Positions 20,023 through 27,389 of a DNA stretch of 49,807 nucleotides are shown one piece after another. The notes below the pieces were generated by a model, which was not told the origin of the DNA, made no database searches, and saw only the letters and a program-made list of their open reading frames with translations. The position numbers and the translations under genes are program-made. Numbering within the stretch: the first letter of the stretch is position 1; each line of letters opens with the position of its first letter. Source of the DNA: Desulfovibrio sp. DV (GTDB lineage: Bacteria > Desulfobacterota > Desulfovibrionia > Desulfovibrionales > Desulfovibrionaceae); the NCBI RefSeq assembly GCF_001936595.1, contig NZ_MLBG01000018.1, forward strand, positions 1 through 49,807. Direction: 5' to 3'.

Positions 20023-21900
20023 CTAGGCCAGGGCCTTTGGCCTGCTGCCGCCCCGGCCTTCGGCTTCCAGCTCTTCCATGAGCGCCGCCAGTTCCTGGGA
20101 CTGCCGGGCCAGTTCGGCCACGGTCCGGGCCGCTTCGGCCATGGCCCGGGAATTGGATTCGGAAATGGCGCTGACTGCGTCCACGGCCCGGTTGATCTCG
20201 TCGCTGGTGGCGGATTGCTCTTCGGCGGCCGTGGCAATGGAGCGCACCTGGTCCGAGGCGTTTTCCACCAATCCGACGATCTGGGCCAGGGCCTCGCCGG
20301 CCTGGGCCGCCAGGCTGGTGGCCTTGGCCACGGCCCCGGCCGCCGCGTCCACGTTGCCCACGTTCCGGCTGGCCCCGGCCTGGATGCCCCGGATGGCGTC
20401 GCCCACTTCCTTGGTGGCGGTCATGGTCTTTTCGGCCAGCTTGCGCACCTCGTCGGCCACCACGGCAAAGCCCCGGCCGGCGTCCCCGGCTCGGGCCGCC
20501 TCGATGGCGGCGTTCAGGGCCAGCAGGTTGGTCTGGTCGGCGATGTCGGAAATGACGTTCATGATGGCCCCGATGTCCTGGGCCTGCCGGCCCAGGCTGT
20601 CCATATCGGCCTTGAGGCCTTGGGCCTGCTCCTGGACCAGCTCAATGGCCGCCACCACCTGCGTCACCACGCCGGCCCCTTCCACGGCCTTGGCTTTGGC
20701 CGCGTCGGTGGTGCCGGCGGCGTTGGAGGCATTTTTGGCCACCTCAAGGACCGTGGCGTTCATTTCCTCCATGGCCGTGGCCGTCTCGGTCATGCGCCGG
20801 GACTGGTCCTCGGCTCCCTGGCTCGACTGGCTGATGCGGTCCGACAGTTCGGCCGAGGCCGTCCCCACCACCGACACCACGCCGCCCAGGCGGTCGGCCG
20901 CCTGGGTCAGGCCTTCGGCTTTGGCCCGTTCGGCCTTCTGGGTGGCTTCCTCGGCCAGACGGGTGGCTTCGAACGCAGCCTGGGCCTTGTCCTCGGCCTC
21001 GGCCGTCTTGGCCGTGATGTCGTCCATGTTGGTGCGCAGGGTGGCCACCATGGTGTTGAGGGCCACCTGCATCCGGGCGGCTTCGTCGTTGCCGCGGGCG
21101 TCCAGGCGCACGGACAGGTCGCCGGCGGCGCAGAGCATGGCCGCCTCGGTGGTCTGGCGGATGGGGCTGGTGATCGAGACCATGATGACGGCGCTGACCC
21201 CGATCAGGATGACCAGCCCCACGGCCACGCTGCCGGCGATGGTCAAAAGGGCCGAGCGGATGCGGGCCGCGTTGTCGGCCCGGATGGCGGTCTTGGCCCG
21301 GTCGATGTTGTCGATGTAAATGCCGGTGCCGATCCACAGCGTCGTGCCCGGGATCATGGTGGCGTAGGCCAGCTTGGGCTGGTCGCCCTGGCCGGGCTTG
21401 GGAAAGATGTACTCGATAAACCCGCCGCCGGCCTTGGCTTTCTGGTTGAGTTCGCGCACGAAGTAGACGTTGTTCTTGTCCTTGAGATCCCCCAGGTCCT
21501 TGCCCTGGTTGGCCTTGTTGGGCGGCAGGGCGACGTTGACCGTGTCCTGGTAGACGAAGAAGTAGCCGGATTTGTCTTCTTCAAAGCGAAAGGTGTCCAC
21601 CATGGACCGAATGGTCTCCAGGCGTTTTTCCGGGGTATTCTCGGTTTTGATGGCCGCACTGATGGCCTCGGCCATGGCATTGGAGGCCACGGCGAGTTTG
21701 AGGCGTTCCCCGTCAAGCATGAGTGTCTGGGCCGATTGCACCGTATGCTCTTCCAGCCGATGCAATTCCGTGGAAAAGGCCAGGACCATGCCGACGGTAA
21801 ACAGTGTGAACAGGGCCAACAGGAGGACGAAGCGCCAGGACAGGGAAAAGCGCCGCAGAACAGCAAGGACGCCGCCGGAACCGGATGCAGTCGCAGTCAC
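20023..21900 (-). CDS. Methyl-accepting chemotaxis protein with periplasmic Cache domain
   Basis: 625 residues from the GTG at 21900. This start has GGAGG five bases upstream and lies 54 bases below a -10-like hexamer; an earlier in-frame ATG at 21978 falls between the -35 and -10 and is unlikely. Layout: TM1 ([21 protein letters not shown]), a single Cache-type sensor with [25 protein letters not shown]2 around residues 217-238, HAMP, a long coiled coil, and the signalling tip [20 protein letters not shown]. It senses an extracellular ligand and controls CheA. The ligand is not predictable. Confidence 0.93.
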
Positions 21901-21953
21901 GGGAACCTCCGCCAACAGGTTGCAGGCCAGGGGCTTTTGCGGGATTTCACCAG

Positions 21954-21982
21954 ACTTTAGGATATTATCCAAATGCAATCAA
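21954..21982 (-). promoter_or_regulatory. Sigma70-like promoter of the chemoreceptor gene
   Basis: On the minus strand TTGATT (21982-21977), 17 bases, then TAAAGT (21959-21954). Transcription would start near 21947, leaving a leader of about 46 bases before the GTG. Confidence 0.55.
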
Positions 21983-22053
21983 CAGGGTCGGTGAAAAATG
22001 CCTGCAGGTTCATGCGGCTGGCGTTGGATTCGGGTTTGGCTTTGTTGCAGGCC

Positions 22054-22088
22054 AAAAAAGCAGCCCCCGCCGGGGGGGCGGGGGCCTG
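22054..22088 (-). terminator. Intrinsic terminator of small RNA 1
   Basis: The stem is 22061-22071 with 22077-22088 (one bulged base) and a C-rich loop, followed on the minus strand by six U residues (A run 22054-22059). Confidence 0.8.
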
Positions 22089-22188
22089 TCAAGGAGGGAG
22101 GAGAGAATCTGTGAGCACGTCTGCTCCGGGGGGTTGGCCCGGAAGCGGGATCGTCGACGGTATGGCTTGAGGGGGAGCCTTTCCCGTC
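22054..22188 (-). ncRNA. Putative small RNA 1 of a three-copy tandem array
   Basis: Predicted transcript of about 135 nt, bounded by a PhoB-like promoter (22195-22238) and an intrinsic terminator (22054-22088). After the -10 it reads ACGGGAAAGGC then CCCCCTC, closely matching copy 2. Just before the terminator it carries CUCUCCUCCCUCCUUGAC, a C/U-rich stretch complementary to Shine-Dalgarno sequences. No ORF with a ribosome site was seen on this strand. The call rests on repeated architecture, not on a known RNA family; it could instead encode an unrecognised peptide. Confidence 0.7.
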
Positions 22189-22194
22189 AATGTA

Positions 22195-22238
22195 CAGATA
22201 AGACCCGATCATGAAGCAGGCATGGATGGCGGATGAAC
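22195..22238 (-). promoter_or_regulatory. PhoB/OmpR-like box and -10 of small RNA 1
   Basis: On the minus strand GTTCAT, CCAT and GCTTCAT have their final T at 22233, 22222 and 22211, exactly 11 bp apart. Ten bases after the last half-site is TATCTG (22200-22195), a -10-like hexamer. The box sits where a -35 would be, as in PhoB-activated promoters. Confidence 0.7.
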
Positions 22239-22255
22239 TCTGCGATGGATTTGGC

Positions 22256-22293
22256 AAAACAAAACCCCTGCCGGGGAGCAGGGGTTTTGTTTT
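22256..22293 (-). terminator. Intrinsic terminator of small RNA 2
   Basis: A perfect 16-bp stem (22256-22271 with 22278-22293), rich in C in the middle and ending in UUUUGUUUU on the minus strand. Its symmetry would also stop plus-strand transcription. Confidence 0.9.
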
Positions 22294-22405
22294 CGAGGAG
22301 GAGGAGGAGCAATCGTCTCGGCCTTTGGCGGGAGGGGGACCGCTGCGGGCTTTGGGTTGTTTGTTGGCAAGGGCGGGGCGGCCGAGGGGGTGGCCGCTTC
22401 CCGTT
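22256..22405 (-). ncRNA. Putative small RNA 2 of a three-copy tandem array
   Basis: Predicted transcript of about 150 nt, bounded by a PhoB-like promoter (22412-22455) and the strongest terminator of the three. It begins CAACGGGAAGCGGCCACCCCC, matching copy 1, and has two more C/U-rich runs: UCCCCCUCCCGCC and, just before the terminator, GCUCCUCCUCCUCCUC. Seventeen bases separate its terminator from the outermost half-site of copy 1. Confidence 0.7.
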
Positions 22406-22411
22406 GCCGAC

Positions 22412-22455
22412 AATCTAAAGCCGGTCCATGAAGCTGCGATGGCGGCTGCATGAAT
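22412..22455 (-). promoter_or_regulatory. PhoB/OmpR-like box and -10 of small RNA 2
   Basis: ATTCAT, CCAT and GCTTCAT (minus strand) end at 22450, 22439 and 22428, 11 bp apart. TAGATT (22417-22412) follows after exactly 10 bases. Spacing is identical to the other two copies although the intervening bases differ. Confidence 0.7.
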
Positions 22456-22598
22456 TCTGGTTAGGAATTGCCTTCCCCGCCACCGCAGCGCGGGTTTTCC
22501 GACCCGGCCCGGGCGCGCAAGGCCGGTGGTACGGCCAAGGCCCTTGCACGTCCCGGACCGGCCCCAACCGCACCCGGATCCGCGCCCCGCCGCTTTAC

Positions 22599-22632
22599 AA
22601 AAAGGAAGCCCCCGCCGGGGAGCGGGGGCTTC
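22599..22632 (-). terminator. Intrinsic terminator of small RNA 3
   Basis: A perfect 11-bp stem (22605-22615 with 22622-22632) with loop TCCCCG, followed by C and five U residues on the minus strand (A run 22599-22603). Stem and loop closely match copy 1. Confidence 0.85.
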
Positions 22633-22759
22633 GTCAAGGAGGGGGAGAGCGTCCTTGGGACCGCCTGGGGATGGGAGGGGCCATCCGATCCGGCGAAACA
22701 AGGCAGAGGGTTCGTTTTGAGTGTCTTTTGGGTCGAACGGGCCATTCGCCTCGTTCGAT
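22599..22759 (-). ncRNA. Putative small RNA 3 of a three-copy tandem array
   Basis: Predicted transcript of about 160 nt, from just below a PhoB-like promoter (22766-22809) to an intrinsic terminator. Its 5' part can fold on an inverted repeat (CGAACG near 22751-22756 with CGTTCG near 22733-22738). C/U-rich runs GCCCCUCCCAUCCCC and GCUCUCCCCCUCCUUGAC resemble the other copies, the latter again directly before the terminator. It is the copy nearest the histidine-kinase gene. The 143 bases between this terminator and the copy 2 box show no further unit. Confidence 0.7.
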
Positions 22760-22765
22760 GGCTAC

Positions 22766-22809
22766 CGTATAGAACCCGGATATGAAGCGGGGATGGCCAC
22801 AAAATGAAC
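22766..22809 (-). promoter_or_regulatory. PhoB/OmpR-like box and -10 of small RNA 3
   Basis: GTTCAT, CCAT and GCTTCAT (minus strand) end at 22804, 22793 and 22782, again 11 bp apart, with TATACG (22771-22766) exactly 10 bases beyond. The box starts only seven bases after the stop of the histidine-kinase gene. Confidence 0.7.
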
Positions 22810-22815
22810 GAAAAT

Positions 22816-24195
22816 TTAACTTTTCGTCCGGCCGGCCGGAAAGGCCAGGGTGACCACCAGGCCCGGAGCATTGTCGGCCAGGGTCAGCTCGGCATGATGG
22901 AGCCCGGCCGCCGCCGCCACCAGCGACAGGCCAAGCCCGCTGCCCGGGGTGTTGCGGCTGGATTCCAGGCGGGTGAAGCGTTCAAGGACCAGGTCGCGGT
23001 GCTCGGCCGGGATGCCGGGACCGGTGTCGGCCACGCTTAGCTCCGCCCCGGTGGGGGTGGCCCGCAGGGTCAGGTTCACCGTCCCGCCGACCGGGGTGTA
23101 TTTGACGGCGTTGTCGAGCAGGTTGGCCAGGGCCTGGGAGAGCAGATGGCGGTTGCCGGGCACGGTGACGTCCGGGTCGAGGTCCAGGGTGAAGGCCAGT
23201 CCGGCTTCTTCGGCCACGGGTTCGTAGAGTTCGCCGGCGTCGGCGGCCAGGCTGGTCAGGTCGATGTCGGTGAAATCCTGGCGGCGCGCCCCGGATTCGG
23301 CCTGGGCAATGGTCAACAGGGCGTTGAAGGTCTGGAGCAGTCCGTCGATCTCGCGGATGGTGTGCTCCAGGACCTCGCGGTAGGCCTCGGGGCTCTGGAT
23401 GTCGGCCAGAGACATTTCCAGGCCCGAGCGGATGCGGTTTAAGGGGCCGCGCAGGTCGTGGGCGATGTTGTTGGAAACCTGTTTGACGCCTTCCATGAGC
23501 CGGCTGATCTGGTCGAGCATGGCGTTTAAGTTCTCGGCCAGCCGGTCGAATTCGTCGCCGGCCCCCCGGGTGGGGATGCGCCGGCTCAAGTCGCCGTTCA
23601 TGATTTCGCGGCTGGCTTTGGTGATGACGTCGATGCGCTTGAGCATCCAGCGGCTGGTCAGCACCCCGCCGGCCCCGCCCAGGACAACGGTCAGGAGCAG
23701 GCCCCAGAACAGGGAATCGATGATGAGCCGCTCCACCTTGACCCGTTCGGACACGTCGCGCCCGACCACCAGATGGAAATTGCCGGGCAGCAGGAAATAG
23801 CGCATCCGCACCCGGCGCGGCTCGAAATTCTCCGTATCCTCCAGGGTGGCGTCAAACCAGCCCGAGCCGGTGTCCTTGAACTTGGGCCACTCGGGCAGGT
23901 TGCCGGCCAGGGGATTGAATTTCCAGTCGGTGAGCAGGTAGACGCTCGATCCGGCCTTGTCCTTGGCCACGCGCGACTTGATGACCCGTATAAGGCCTGT
24001 GAGGCCAAGCTGGCTGTACTGTTCGGCCAGCCCCTGGATCTCGGCGTTTATGGTCTCATCGGTCTGGCGTTCCATGAAGCCGGCCGTCGAGGTGTAGATA
24101 AACCACAGGAGCACCAGCACCGACAGGCCGAAGGCGGCCATGTGCAGGATGGACAGGCGAAGGGTGGAGGAACGCAGGAGTTTAGTTGGGATCAC
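22816..24195 (-). CDS. Sensor histidine kinase of an OmpR-type two-component system
   Basis: 459 residues from a GTG overlapping the regulator gene by 14 bases. TM1 spans about residues 14-38, then a periplasmic domain of roughly 125 residues containing WKFNPLAGNLPEWPKF, TM2 near 163-183, and HAMP. The HisKA H-box NNIAHDLRGPLN has its His near residue 245. The HATPase N-box LANLLDNAVKYT is near 355, with DTGPGIP and GSGLGLSL beyond. It is the partner of the adjacent OmpR-type regulator. The signal is unknown. The three small-RNA units begin directly downstream. Confidence 0.93.
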   Translation of the reverse strand: MIPTKLLRSSTLRLSILHMAAFGLSVLVLLWFIYTSTAGFMERQTDETINAEIQGLAEQYSQLGLTGLIRVIKSRVAKDKAGSSVYLLTDWKFNPLAGNLPEWPKFKDTGSGWFDATLEDTENFEPRRVRMRYFLLPGNFHLVVGRDVSERVKVERLIIDSLFWGLLLTVVLGGAGGVLTSRWMLKRIDVITKASREIMNGDLSRRIPTRGAGDEFDRLAENLNAMLDQISRLMEGVKQVSNNIAHDLRGPLNRIRSGLEMSLADIQSPEAYREVLEHTIREIDGLLQTFNALLTIAQAESGARRQDFTDIDLTSLAADAGELYEPVAEEAGLAFTLDLDPDVTVPGNRHLLSQALANLLDNAVKYTPVGGTVNLTLRATPTGAELSVADTGPGIPAEHRDLVLERFTRLESSRNTPGSGLGLSLVAAAAGLHHAELTLADNAPGLVVTLAFPAGRTKS

Positions 24196-24859
24196 GCAGA
24201 CTGTACCCGGCGCCGCGAATGGTGGAGAGCAGGGGCTTGTCGTGGCCCTTGTCGATCTTGTGCCGCAGGCGGCTTATGTGGACGTCGATGACATTGGTCT
24301 GGGGGTCGAAGGAATAGTCCCAGACGTTTTCCAGCAGCATGGTGCGGGTGACCACATGGCCGGCATGGCGCATGAGGTATTCGAGCAGGGAAAATTCCTT
24401 GGGCTTGAGCTCGATGGCCTGGCCGGCCCGGCGCACCGAACGGCCCACCAGATCCATCTCCAGGTCGGCCACCTTGAGAATGGTGTCCGGGGCGTCGGAG
24501 CGGCCCCGGCGCAGGAGCGCCTCCAGCCGGGCCAGCAGCTCGGCAAAGGCATAGGGTTTGACCAGATAGTCGTCGCCCCCGGCCTTGAGGCCCTTGACCC
24601 GGTCGTCCACGTCGCCCAGGGCCGACAGGATGAGCACCGGGGTCTGGTTGCCGGCCGAGCGCATGGTCTTGACGATGGTCAGGCCGTCAACCCCGGGCAG
24701 CATCCGGTCCACCACCACGGCGTCGTAGGTTTCGGCCGCCACCCGGTACAGGGCCTCGCGTCCGTCGGCCACGTGGTCCACCACATAGCCGGATTCCTTG
24801 AGGCCCTTGACCATGTAGGCGGCGGCATCCTGATCGTCTTCCACGATGAGCACTCGCAT
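24182..24859 (-). CDS. OmpR/PhoB-family response regulator
   Basis: 225 residues from ATG 24859, preceded by AAGGAG. The receiver has acidic pocket VEDD (7-10), phosphoacceptor Asp51 in VVVDRMLPG, Ser79 and Lys101 in YLVKPYAF. A winged-helix output domain follows from about residue 128: LKPKEFSLLEYLMRHAGHVVTRTMLLENVW and VIDVHISRLRHKID. Such regulators bind direct repeats with about 11-bp spacing, the spacing seen in the three boxes at 22211-22809. It lies 49 bases after a hybrid kinase gene on the same strand and may be co-transcribed with it. Confidence 0.95.
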   Translation of the reverse strand: MRVLIVEDDQDAAAYMVKGLKESGYVVDHVADGREALYRVAAETYDAVVVDRMLPGVDGLTIVKTMRSAGNQTPVLILSALGDVDDRVKGLKAGGDDYLVKPYAFAELLARLEALLRRGRSDAPDTILKVADLEMDLVGRSVRRAGQAIELKPKEFSLLEYLMRHAGHVVTRTMLLENVWDYSFDPQTNVIDVHISRLRHKIDKGHDKPLLSTIRGAGYSLRDPN

Positions 24860-24908
24860 GGCGGACTCCTTGGCGGGTCGGCGGACAGCGCCGGTCCGCC
24901 GGGGCTGG

Positions 24909-27389
24909 TCATCTGGCGGCAATACGCTCGAGGGCCGCATCGAGTTCGTTCATATCGATGGGCTTTGGCACATAGTCGTCAAAGCCGGCTTCGAGCATAC
25001 GCTCGCGGTAGCCCTTGATGGCATGGGCGGTCAGGGCCACCACGGGCGTTGCGGCAGTGTCGCCGAAGGTTTCGACGTCGCGCAGGCGCCTGAGCGTTTC
25101 CAGGCCGCTTAAGCCCGGCATCTCGACATCCATAAGGACACAGTGAAAGGGTGTGGTGGCCAACAGATCCAGGGCGGCCTGGCCGGAGTCGACAGCGGTG
25201 ACCGCATGGCCGCGCCGTTCCAGCAACCGCTTGGCCACGAGCTGGTTGATGAGATTGTCCTCCACCAGCAAAATGGACAGCGGGGACAACGCCTGCGGGT
25301 GCTTTGCCCGGGCCGGCGCGGTCTGGGCCGGCTCGGGCTGGGCCGGCGGCATTTCGAACACCGCGGTAAAAAAGAAGGTGCTGCCCAGGTCCGGTTCGGA
25401 TTCGACCCAGATCCGCCCGCCCATGAGCTTGACGAGATTGCTGCTGATCGACAACCCCAGGCCCGTGCCGCCGGCCCCGCGATTGAGGCTGGCGTCGAGC
25501 TGGGTGAAATATTCGAAGATGCGCCCGTGTTTGTCGCGGGGGATGCCCATGCCGTCGTCGGCCACGGAGAAAAGCAGGGTCATCGACGGCGTTCCGGGTT
25601 CGGGCACGGCGCAGTGGATGGCCGGGGCGGGCTGGACGAGCACCCGCACCGTGCCGTTCTTGGTGAATTTAAGCCCGTTGGAGACGAGGTTGGCCACGAT
25701 CTGGGCCAGCCGGCCGGGGTCGCCGATGAGGGTCTCTGGCACGTCCGGGGCCACGGTCATGGTCAGACTGTTGCCATGGCGGGCGGCCAGCCCGCTGTAG
25801 AGGCGCTGGCACACGCCCATGGTGTCGCGCAGGGCAAATGGGGTGTGGCCAAGCTCCATCCTTCCTGCTTCTATACGGGAAAAGTCAAGAATATCGTTGA
25901 TAATTTCCAGCAGATTGACGGCGGACTGGCGGGCCAGATCGAGGTAGTCGCGCTGCTCCGGGGTCAGTTCCGTGGACATGGCCAGTTCGACCATGCCCAT
26001 GATGCCGTTCATGGGGGTGCGGATTTCATGGCTCATGGTGGCCAGGAACTGGGACTTGGTGCGGTTGGCGGCTTCGGCCGCCTCCATGGCCCGGGTGAGC
26101 CGCTCGCGGGTGCGCATCAGCTCGGTGACGTCAACCATGGCTTCGATGATGCTGGACGTGCCGGGCAGACGGCTGGCGGTCTTGTACATGATCCGATCGC
26201 CGTTTAAGGTCTTTATGGCGCATTCCCGTTCGCGCACCACGCCCGAGGCGGCGTTTAACACCGGACAGATGTCCTTGTTGCACAGGTAGTCCTTGCAGGA
26301 CAGTCCCCGGGCACTGGGACCGAACAGGCGCTCGGCCGCCGGATTCTGGTATTCAAGGATGCGGTCCCCGCTGTCGGTCAGGCGCACCTTGACGATGGGG
26401 ATGGGGGCGCTATTAAGGACCAGTTCCAGGTCGCGCCGGCTCTGGACGCTTTCGGTGACGTCAAGGACCAGTCCCTGGACGGCACTGACCTGTCCGGAGG
26501 CGTCGCGGCTAAACTGGATGCGGTCGGTCACATGGCGGATCTGGCCGTTTTGCGTCACGATGCGGTAGTCCAGGGCAAAGGCGTCGCGGCCGGAGGCGGC
26601 GTAGTCGCGCATGGCGGCCTCGACCCGCTGCCGGTCTTCGGGGTGGATCAGGCTTTTGGGCGAGCGGGCTCCGGAGAGCAGGGCGTCGCGGGAAAATCCG
26701 AACCGGGCGATGTTCGAGGAGACGTAGGACACCGGCCCGGGTTCGCCGTCTGCGACCGGATAGCGGATGAGATAGGCCGGGCTGGCCTCCAGGATAAGGC
26801 TGGCCTGGCGCATGGCGTCGTCGGCCTCGCAGCGGACGCTGACATCGGCGACCATCATGCGCAGGGTTCGTCCGGGTTGGTCCGGGTTGGAGCCGGTCCA
26901 CGGTTCCGTGGTCAGTTCGGCGGTGAAGCGGCTGCCGTCGCGCCGGGTCAGGCGCACTTCCAGGGTCTGGGGGCAATTGGCCTCCAGGGTCCGGCTGAGG
27001 CTTGTGTGAAAGGCGCTCTGGTCCGAGCGGGCCACGCGCACGACAAAGGGCTTGCCGACGAGCTCGCTGCGGGCGATGCCGAGCATGGCCGACCCCTTGA
27101 GGTTGGCTTCGAGGATGACGCCCCGGGGGTCAAGGGTGAAGTAGCCGGCCGGAGCAAAGTCGTAGAGATTGGCGTAGCGGTCGCGGGTCTCGGCCAGTTC
27201 GGCCTGGGTGCGGCGCAATTCATCGTTTTGCAGTTCCAGCTCGATCTGGTTGACCCGGAGTTCATGGATAAGCCGGGCCATGTCCGCCACGGACAACTGG
27301 CCCAGCTCCGAGGCTGGCGACTGGGCAATGAGGGACTCGGCCTTGCGGCGCAGGTCGGCGGTCATCACATCGGCGGCGGGGTCTTTCAT
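24909..27389 (-). CDS. PAS-containing hybrid sensor histidine kinase/response regulator
   Basis: 826 residues, no clear transmembrane segment, so probably cytoplasmic. A coiled N-terminus (about 1-75) leads into three PAS-type segments; the last contains a cysteine-rich stretch [18 protein letters not shown]. HisKA has [13 protein letters not shown] with His near residue 454, then HATPase with [12 protein letters not shown] and [11 protein letters not shown]-terminal receiver has its Asp near 753 in [13 protein letters not shown] and Lys in YVPKPID. It precedes the OmpR-type system and could feed it, but phosphotransfer between them is unproven. Confidence 0.92.

Follow-up and report, generated by a model that had tools for sequence, protein, structure and literature searches.

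We describe three tandem units in the genome of the sulfate reducer Desulfovibrio sp. DV, grouped here with Solidesulfovibrio, as predicted small RNA (sRNA) genes arrayed behind a two-component system. The window, i.e. the whole stretch of DNA that was analysed, covers positions 1 to 49,807 (49,807 nt) of contig NZ_MLBG01000018.1, and the units, designated S3, S2 and S1, lie on its minus strand 3′ of a sensor histidine kinase gene. In our preferred reading, to which we assign a probability of about two in three, these paralogous sRNAs would be activated by the adjacent OmpR-type response regulator and would expose anti-Shine-Dalgarno (anti-SD) segments that repress translation. Six features are observed directly, namely the shared layout, its conservation across the genus, the specificity of the operator, the lack of a conserved open reading frame, the resemblance between the units and their association with a single clade of regulators; from these we infer transcription, regulator binding, anti-SD action, the inducing signal and the targets.

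Three units of one build

Along the minus strand the units follow one another as S3, S2 and S1, and each repeats the same succession of parts: a box of three half-sites, 10 nt, a -10 hexamer of TA type, about 135-160 nt, a CU-rich run and an intrinsic terminator. The 5′ ends of the predicted RNAs were placed about 7 nt past the -10 hexamer. The operator of S3, TTCAT-N6-GCCAT-N6-TTCAT (22782..22808), begins with a half-site that starts 8 nt beyond the end of the kinase stop codon; it precedes the -10-like hexamer TATACG (22766..22771; initial TA kept in 13/13 genomes) and a predicted sRNA of about 161 nt (22599..22759) with the hairpin GGAUGGCCCCUCCCAUCC (22669..22686), the SD-complementary pyrimidine segment CUCUCCCCCUCCUUGA (22634..22649) and a terminator (22605..22632). 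S2 has an operator of the same form, TTCAT-N6-GCCAT-N6-TTCAT (22428..22454), the hexamer TAGATT (22412..22417) and a predicted sRNA of about 150 nt (22256..22405), in which the pyrimidine segment GCUCCUCCUCCUCCUCG (22294..22310) is followed by a terminator with perfect 16-bp arms (22256..22293). S1 combines the operator TTCAT-N6-TCCAT-N6-TTCAT (22211..22237), the hexamer TATCTG (22195..22200; initial TA again kept in 13/13), a predicted sRNA of about 135 nt (22054..22188), the candidate seed CUCUCCUCCCUCCUUGA (22089..22105) and a terminator (22062..22086).

The first-pass annotation of this DNA had proposed one layout repeated three times on the minus strand with identical promoter spacing, and the boxes at 22808-22782, 22454-22428 and 22237-22211 bear this out. 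The terminators end at about 22054, 22256 and 22599, where it had placed the transcript ends, and the motifs ACGGGAA and CCCCCTC that it had reported as common to copies 1 and 2 are present in both. A repeat finder aligned the three terminator regions over 46 nt (61% and 80% identity to copy 1) and the three boxes over 28 nt (68% and 75%). A terminator scan of 21000-24000 yielded 11 terminator-like sites, against 3.2 ± 1.9 in shuffled sequences, eight of which are full or nested forms of the three unit terminators.

Distribution and probable RNA nature of the units

In a blastn search of 59 genomes, the region was recovered from its own genome and from 12 of the 13 other members of the genus, and from none of 45 genomes of other genera; the only genus member lacking it, G002, is a genome that is 69% complete. 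Three units are thus carried by 13/14 Solidesulfovibrio genomes, with the kinase gene adjoining in all 13 loci, where a strict box scan detected only two boxes in five genomes and the third came from a looser scan with weaker, overlapping matches. In the sister genus g53, all three genomes drawn (G077, G104 and G122) have one unit behind the kinase gene, box and CU segment included. The 16-mer TCTCCTCCCTCCTTGA occurs in 12 of 169 genomes of the family, once in each (9/12 Solidesulfovibrio drawn and 3/3 g53), and in 0/154 family genomes outside these two genera. Short matches elsewhere were noted at G000 C75:17180-17207 and on G008 C4.

The units are related to one another. Profiles built from each unit match the other two at 13.5-45.9 bits, while 130 shuffled sequences per profile reached at most 1.4 bits; because shuffling also breaks the terminator hairpin, the terminator and the CU segment probably carry much of this signal. 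The g53 units score 28.4-31.5 bits with the S1 profile and 4.7-8.5 with that of S3, and the S2 profile matches one of the three sequences. Selection rather than recent duplication had been suggested beforehand, and this agrees with the persistence of the three units as separate orthologous groups across the genus. The single g53 unit (L145, L146 and L148, downstream of the kinase gene) also contains a G-rich stretch, CGGGGAGGGGUGCGG, which on visual inspection might base-pair with the CU segment of the same unit and possibly form a self-sequestering switch.

That the units encode short peptides is most improbable. Short open frames occur in every unit, but no start-to-stop frame within any of them is conserved across the 13 genomes (judged by eye), and peptide-coding units were rejected on this ground; the best candidate, a 16-codon frame in S3, is found in 6/13 genomes and lacks an evident SD. 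Frames starting with TTG that read into the terminator and on past the end of the unit recur in S1 (11/13) and S3 (10/13), a persistence that we discount because their DNA is fixed by the seed and the terminator.

In the consensus folds obtained with RNAalifold, S1 has 18 pairs, S2 has 15 and S3 has 22. In S1, seven of the 18 pairs show two-sided changes (shuffle mean 2.6; 1/500 shuffles with as many), five of them in the 5′ hairpins and two in the terminator. S3 has six such pairs out of 22, four in the terminator (shuffle mean 2.7; 1/500 with as many), and its further pair types are not above shuffles (177/500). The shuffle control concerns S1 and S3, and these folds derive from the very alignments on which covariation was counted, which favours them; the same RNAalifold count gives S2 six two-sided pairs, five of which are in the terminator. 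In up to 4/13 sequences, some of the hairpin pairs are disrupted. The lack of an evident open reading frame and the RNA nature put forward in the first-pass annotation are consequently in line with what the alignments suggest, i.e. no conserved start-to-stop frame, and covariation beyond shuffles in S1 and S3. Its statement that no described RNA family matches likewise held, with no Rfam family reaching its cut-off in the whole window.

Outside the promoters, the strongly conserved parts are pyrimidine-rich: CUCUCCUCCCUCCUU in S1, where 14 of the first 15 columns of the seed are invariant in 13/13 genus genomes, GGCCCCUCCC and CUCUCCCC-type runs in S3, and CCUCCUC-type runs, kept less strictly, in S2. 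The CU-rich cores are predicted to be mostly unpaired in S1 and S2, with mean unpaired probabilities over 13 genomes each of 0.86 and 0.88 for the segment, compared with 0.40 and 0.43 elsewhere in the RNA. From this sequence evidence we are highly confident that the array comprises three real, conserved sRNA genes linked to the regulator.

A sharp predicted operator over the -35 region

The box TTCAT-N6-KCCAT-N6-TTCAT consists of three half-sites phased at 11 bp, with identical inner spacing in all units. With the starts assigned above, it reaches from about -49 to about -23 and overlies the -35 region. None of the three unit promoters was matched by a two-hexamer sigma-70 consensus scan of 21000-24000, and no -35 hexamer was found, as is expected of activator-dependent promoters, at which the activator replaces the -35 contact.

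The exact box occurs three times in the 4.85-Mb genome, each time at a unit, and a reversed-pattern control gave no occurrence. Boxes with one mismatch were seen at three more places (G000:C6:57080-57106, C13:57239-57265 and C46:2597-2623), and could be further regulon members or chance matches. A weight matrix built from 39 boxes of 13 genomes, the three sites of the window included, scores 35.9, 33.5 and 32.7 at S3, S2 and S1 and 11.0 at the next best site of the 49.8-kb window; since the matrix was trained on these sites, the evidence lies in the gap between the scores and not in their height. All 39 boxes score 28.0-38.9 with the first TTCAT kept in 39/39, and the overall form across the genus is TTCAT-N6-NCCAT-N6-TYCAT. 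The single unit of g53 is preceded by the same kind of box, at 25.6-28.1.

OmpR-type regulators typically have direct half-sites set in phase, and the adjacent response regulator is very probably the one to which the box belongs. We think it quite unlikely that the TTCAT boxes are read by some other regulator. Such boxes are not above chance near homologues from outside the family: loci L029-L108 contain seven sites, three of them those of S. aerotolerans and four others, where one shuffle gave two, and TYCAT-N6-TYCAT pairs were found at 2/79 loci. Against this stands the fact that boxes accompany this regulator in both Solidesulfovibrio and g53, with similar boxes before degP in another genus (g10) and weaker ones in g11. 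Control of the sRNAs by the adjacent two-component system is a part of our reading of which we are fairly sure.

A regulator whose relatives often adjoin degP

The presumed activator is an OmpR-type response regulator of 226 aa (24182..24862, minus strand), and its partner is a sensor histidine kinase with HAMP, HisKA and HATPase_c domains (22816..24195, minus strand). The best NCBIfam models for the regulator are those of the heavy-metal regulators CzcR/SilR/CopR and CusR and of HprR, all below cut-off. Its closest named relative among the matches listed is from Solidesulfovibrio aerotolerans; in the best 80 loci besides that species, the homologues are 60-73% identical and mostly from Proteobacteria. 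The regulator is of a Proteobacteria-wide type that often stands beside a DegP/HtrA gene. In 53/93 loci outside the genus and in 0/14 inside it (the window, L015-L026 and L029), the pair has a DegP/HtrA-like gene at a distance of no more than about 1.5 kb, with the caveats that several stretches end at contig ends and that L029 and L020, as well as L030 and L150, are on the same contig. In 8/14 loci from the family's other genera, the gene next behind that of the kinase is degP, at the position that S3 occupies here.

A tree of 104 regulators, from which L029 (same contig as L020) and L030 and L150 (one truncated contig, twice) were left out, places the 16 sRNA-linked regulators in one clade (support 99/93). 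Next out are the DegP-linked L147, L149 and L151 of the same family (19-row fork, 96/74), then L152 (20-row set, 100/96), and the g10 regulators sit elsewhere on the tree. L152 (G029) carries an orthologue of the regulator at 78% identity; behind its kinase gene there is no degP and no evident sRNA unit. Before degP, six g10 loci have sites resembling TTCAT-N6-GAAAY-N6-GTCAT, together with an upstream ATGAA, and 0-9 of 500 shuffles were as good.

DegP homologues are encoded at other loci in 14/14 Solidesulfovibrio genomes. That of the own genome is 57% identical to the linked DegP of L154, and that of G008 is 54-58% identical to four linked ones. No consistent box was found before these genes in the 30 loci scanned out of 32 matches (best score at most 12.1, inconsistent between genomes). 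We read these findings as a departure of the linked protease gene from the locus, with an sRNA taking over its promoter position and then multiplying, the order of events being inferred. We consider it very unlikely that the units are mere remnants, that is, orphaned degP promoters with terminators shielding the neighbouring genes and a functionless RNA in between. S3 does occupy, behind a similar box, the degP start position of several DegP-linked genera, as such remnants would; the internal pyrimidine segments, however, are no less conserved than the promoters in the 13 genomes, and the 5′ hairpins of S1 maintain pairing through two-sided changes.

Anti-SD segments and candidate targets

The CU segments contain CCUCC or CCUCCUU, which we take to be the anti-SD core of 16S rRNA. 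The best candidate target suggested by complementarity is the mRNA of a class III cytochrome c, which carries AAGGAGGGAGTYGGATG in 14/14 genus genomes (L234, G000:C2:22108-22124). The stretch AAGGAGGGAGTTGGATG (TCGG in G004) precedes the gene of this exported protein (Pfam PF02085, 79.9 bits), and its SD is AAGGAGGGAG. Pairing of the S1 segment with the cytochrome SD was computed at -21.6 and -23.7 kcal/mol in two genomes, and at -11.4 to -14.3 kcal/mol with three control SDs. Among 70 of 101 control sites examined (the non-complementary SD extensions described below), no gene family recurred in more than three genomes. Matches found in single genomes include a nadB-like gene, a porin-like protein and an HlyD-like lipoprotein, all named by eye. 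With up to 3 mismatches allowed, the own genome has 14 places, S1 included, that match the 17-nt complement of S1, and seven that match its reversed control. We regard the cytochrome mRNA and the other messages named here as candidate targets.

We propose the following chain of events. Envelope stress would be sensed by the kinase, and the phosphorylated OmpR-type regulator would bind the three 11-bp-phased half-sites over the -35 region and activate S3, S2 and S1, each a trans-acting RNA with its own promoter and terminator. Three elements are expected in each folded RNA: hairpins, some of them C-rich in the loop; the CU-rich segment represented by CUCUCCUCCCUCCUUGA and kin; and a GC-rich terminator. 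The CU segment would then pair with SD regions and block the initiation of translation, and the RNAs would probably lower the synthesis of abundant exported proteins, e.g. class III cytochrome c. Repression through anti-SD pairing appears likely. We lean towards envelope stress as the signal, envelope protein stress being the probable inducer because regulators of this type elsewhere adjoin degP/htrA.

Several results weigh against this proposal. The cytochrome SD may be conserved merely as the strong SD of an abundant protein. When full-length duplexes were computed, the cytochrome was not set apart, and 0/18 pairs (six genomes) beat the best of 60 shuffles. The pattern AAGGAGGGAGG-N(2,9)-ATG gave 11 matches in 14 genomes, four of them S1 antisense, and six in the reversed control. 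Complementary SD extensions are not enriched: the S1-complementary AAGGAGGGRG-N(3,10)-ATG occurs at 56 sites in the 14 genus genomes (26 reversed), the non-complementary AAGGAGGCYC-N(3,10)-ATG at 101 (6 reversed). Exported or membrane proteins make up 8/18 test families versus 7/30 control families (p = 0.20), in a comparison for which gene reality, family and export were judged by eye on all 56 test rows and on 70/101 control rows (30 assigned and 40 chosen by the analyst), and from which non-genes so judged and the four S1-antisense rows were dropped, and rows of the same family merged, before counting. The S3 segment is partly paired in the folds (mean unpaired probability 0.63 over 13 genomes, 0.37 for the rest of the RNA), with its CCUU end often in pairs. 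Finally, in g11, a closer degP-linked genus, the degP box is weak (11 and 31 of 500 shuffles as good), and no convincing one was found before degP in the closer degP-linked g16 / L151.

It seems unlikely to us that the RNAs, while real and controlled by the regulator, bind a protein of CsrA type or another translation factor instead of SDs. The several similar pyrimidine motifs per RNA, in loops and linkers, do recall sponge RNAs, Hfq was not detected, and a long conserved mRNA complement was seen at only one cytochrome gene. CsrA sponges, however, carry GGA in their loops. Here, unlike in CsrB/RsmZ, the motifs repeated in the transcribed strand are CU-rich (CCCCUC/CCCCUCCC/CUCC, by eye) and the GGA-rich sequence is on the other strand, which has no box here; moreover, the segment holds the anti-SD core. 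We thus retain anti-SD repression as the preferred action. As for a chaperone, Hfq (PF17209) was detected in 0/59 genomes of the order, the own genome (99.8% complete) included, while 5/14 control genomes were positive; a very divergent Hfq or another chaperone such as ProQ is possible.

Other features of the locus

An inverted repeat at 22806-22829, present in the list of terminator-like sites, spans both the stop codon of the kinase gene and the initial half-site of the S3 box, and might be a terminator of the kinase mRNA or a shaper of the S3 operator. The GC-rich stretch 22471-22598 (about 128 bp), between the S3 terminator and the S2 box, is a spacer outside the unit layout because G008, the nearest relative, has 18 bp in its place; it looks like an insertion in the genome of the window. 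The regulator gene is immediately preceded, in the same orientation, by the gene of a PAS hybrid histidine kinase (window 24909-27389).

Relation to known systems

In this sulfate reducer and its close kin, one stress circuit appears to have exchanged its protein output for RNA at the place where many relatives carry degP, a protein-quality protease gene. The sRNA family was not found described in Rfam or in the open-access literature, and it has a probable regulator, a sharply defined operator and candidate seeds, in a group without detectable Hfq. If our reading is true, it shows how a stress response can gain an RNA arm where a protease gene, since displaced, had its promoter, and makes anti-SD sRNA action without Hfq accessible in Solidesulfovibrio.

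Rfam returned matches on the correct strand to ar14 (RF02344), mmgR/suhB (RF00519), nse (RF02270) and sX13 (RF02232). Like other C-rich sRNAs, ar14 carries C/U-rich anti-SD motifs. It scored 28.9 bits on S2 (E 0.0024) and 22.9 bits on S3; mmgR and nse each match S3 and S1, and sX13 matches S3. All are far below the curated cut-offs (58.8 for ar14, 41 for mmgR), and the matches are weak since the 28-row list also includes unrelated families and matches on the other strand. In enterobacteria, CpxAR and sigma-E combine control of degP with sRNAs that repress envelope-protein mRNAs, in an Hfq-dependent manner and with other seeds. The system described here would likewise be an envelope-stress system with sRNAs, and its regulator groups with a DegP-linked, OmpR-type family; it differs in that no Hfq was detected, which also separates the units from Hfq-dependent trans-acting sRNAs, and in that the examined Solidesulfovibrio degP loci have no box.

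Closer in lineage, the mapped target of the Desulfovibrio vulgaris response regulator DVU0679 is the sRNA Dv_sRNA2 beside its own gene, in a study that counts two OmpR-type regulators in that organism, as far as the parts consulted show (PMC3333781). The likeness is that of a regulator-adjacent sRNA in a related sulfate reducer, with one sRNA there and three here. The consulted portion of a computational survey of non-coding RNAs in Oleidesulfovibrio alaskensis G20 (PMC11124144) has nothing on such units, and no title or abstract among those listed by searches of the open-access literature, a scope that leaves out most subscription papers, concerns this locus.

The nearest functional parallel is with the CiaR-dependent small RNAs (csRNAs) of streptococci, which are likewise sibling sRNAs with their own promoters and terminators, direct-repeat boxes, SD complementarity and a single two-component regulator (CiaRH). 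According to the sections consulted, htrA and the csRNAs belong to one CiaR regulon (PMC3091779, PMC8186281), and prediction of the csRNAs relied on a promoter box combined with a terminator, every one then tested by Northern blot being detected (PMC3091779), a success that supports the inference of sRNAs from these two elements. There are differences: the CiaR box is TTTAAG-N5-TTTAAG in Streptococcus and a triple TTCAT type here, and neither that box nor CiaR itself is present at this locus; csRNA complementarity includes the AUG, which was not noticed here; and the units stand in a single tandem array next to the kinase gene, unlike the csRNAs, with which sequence was compared through Rfam only. 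As in the csRNAs, the units are intergenic, each has its own terminator, and the modelled folds give an unpaired SD-complementary segment, clear in S1 and S2 and partial in S3. By analogy, the units would work like csRNAs and are not members of that group, because the box and the regulator differ. We put forward tentatively, as a possible though not the expected outcome, that in Solidesulfovibrio and its sister genus a degP promoter position now drives an anti-SD sRNA, later tripled, as an Hfq-free arm lowering exported proteins such as class III cytochrome c. Such an arm would be an independent counterpart of CiaRH-htrA-csRNA, convergent with the CiaR csRNAs of streptococci.

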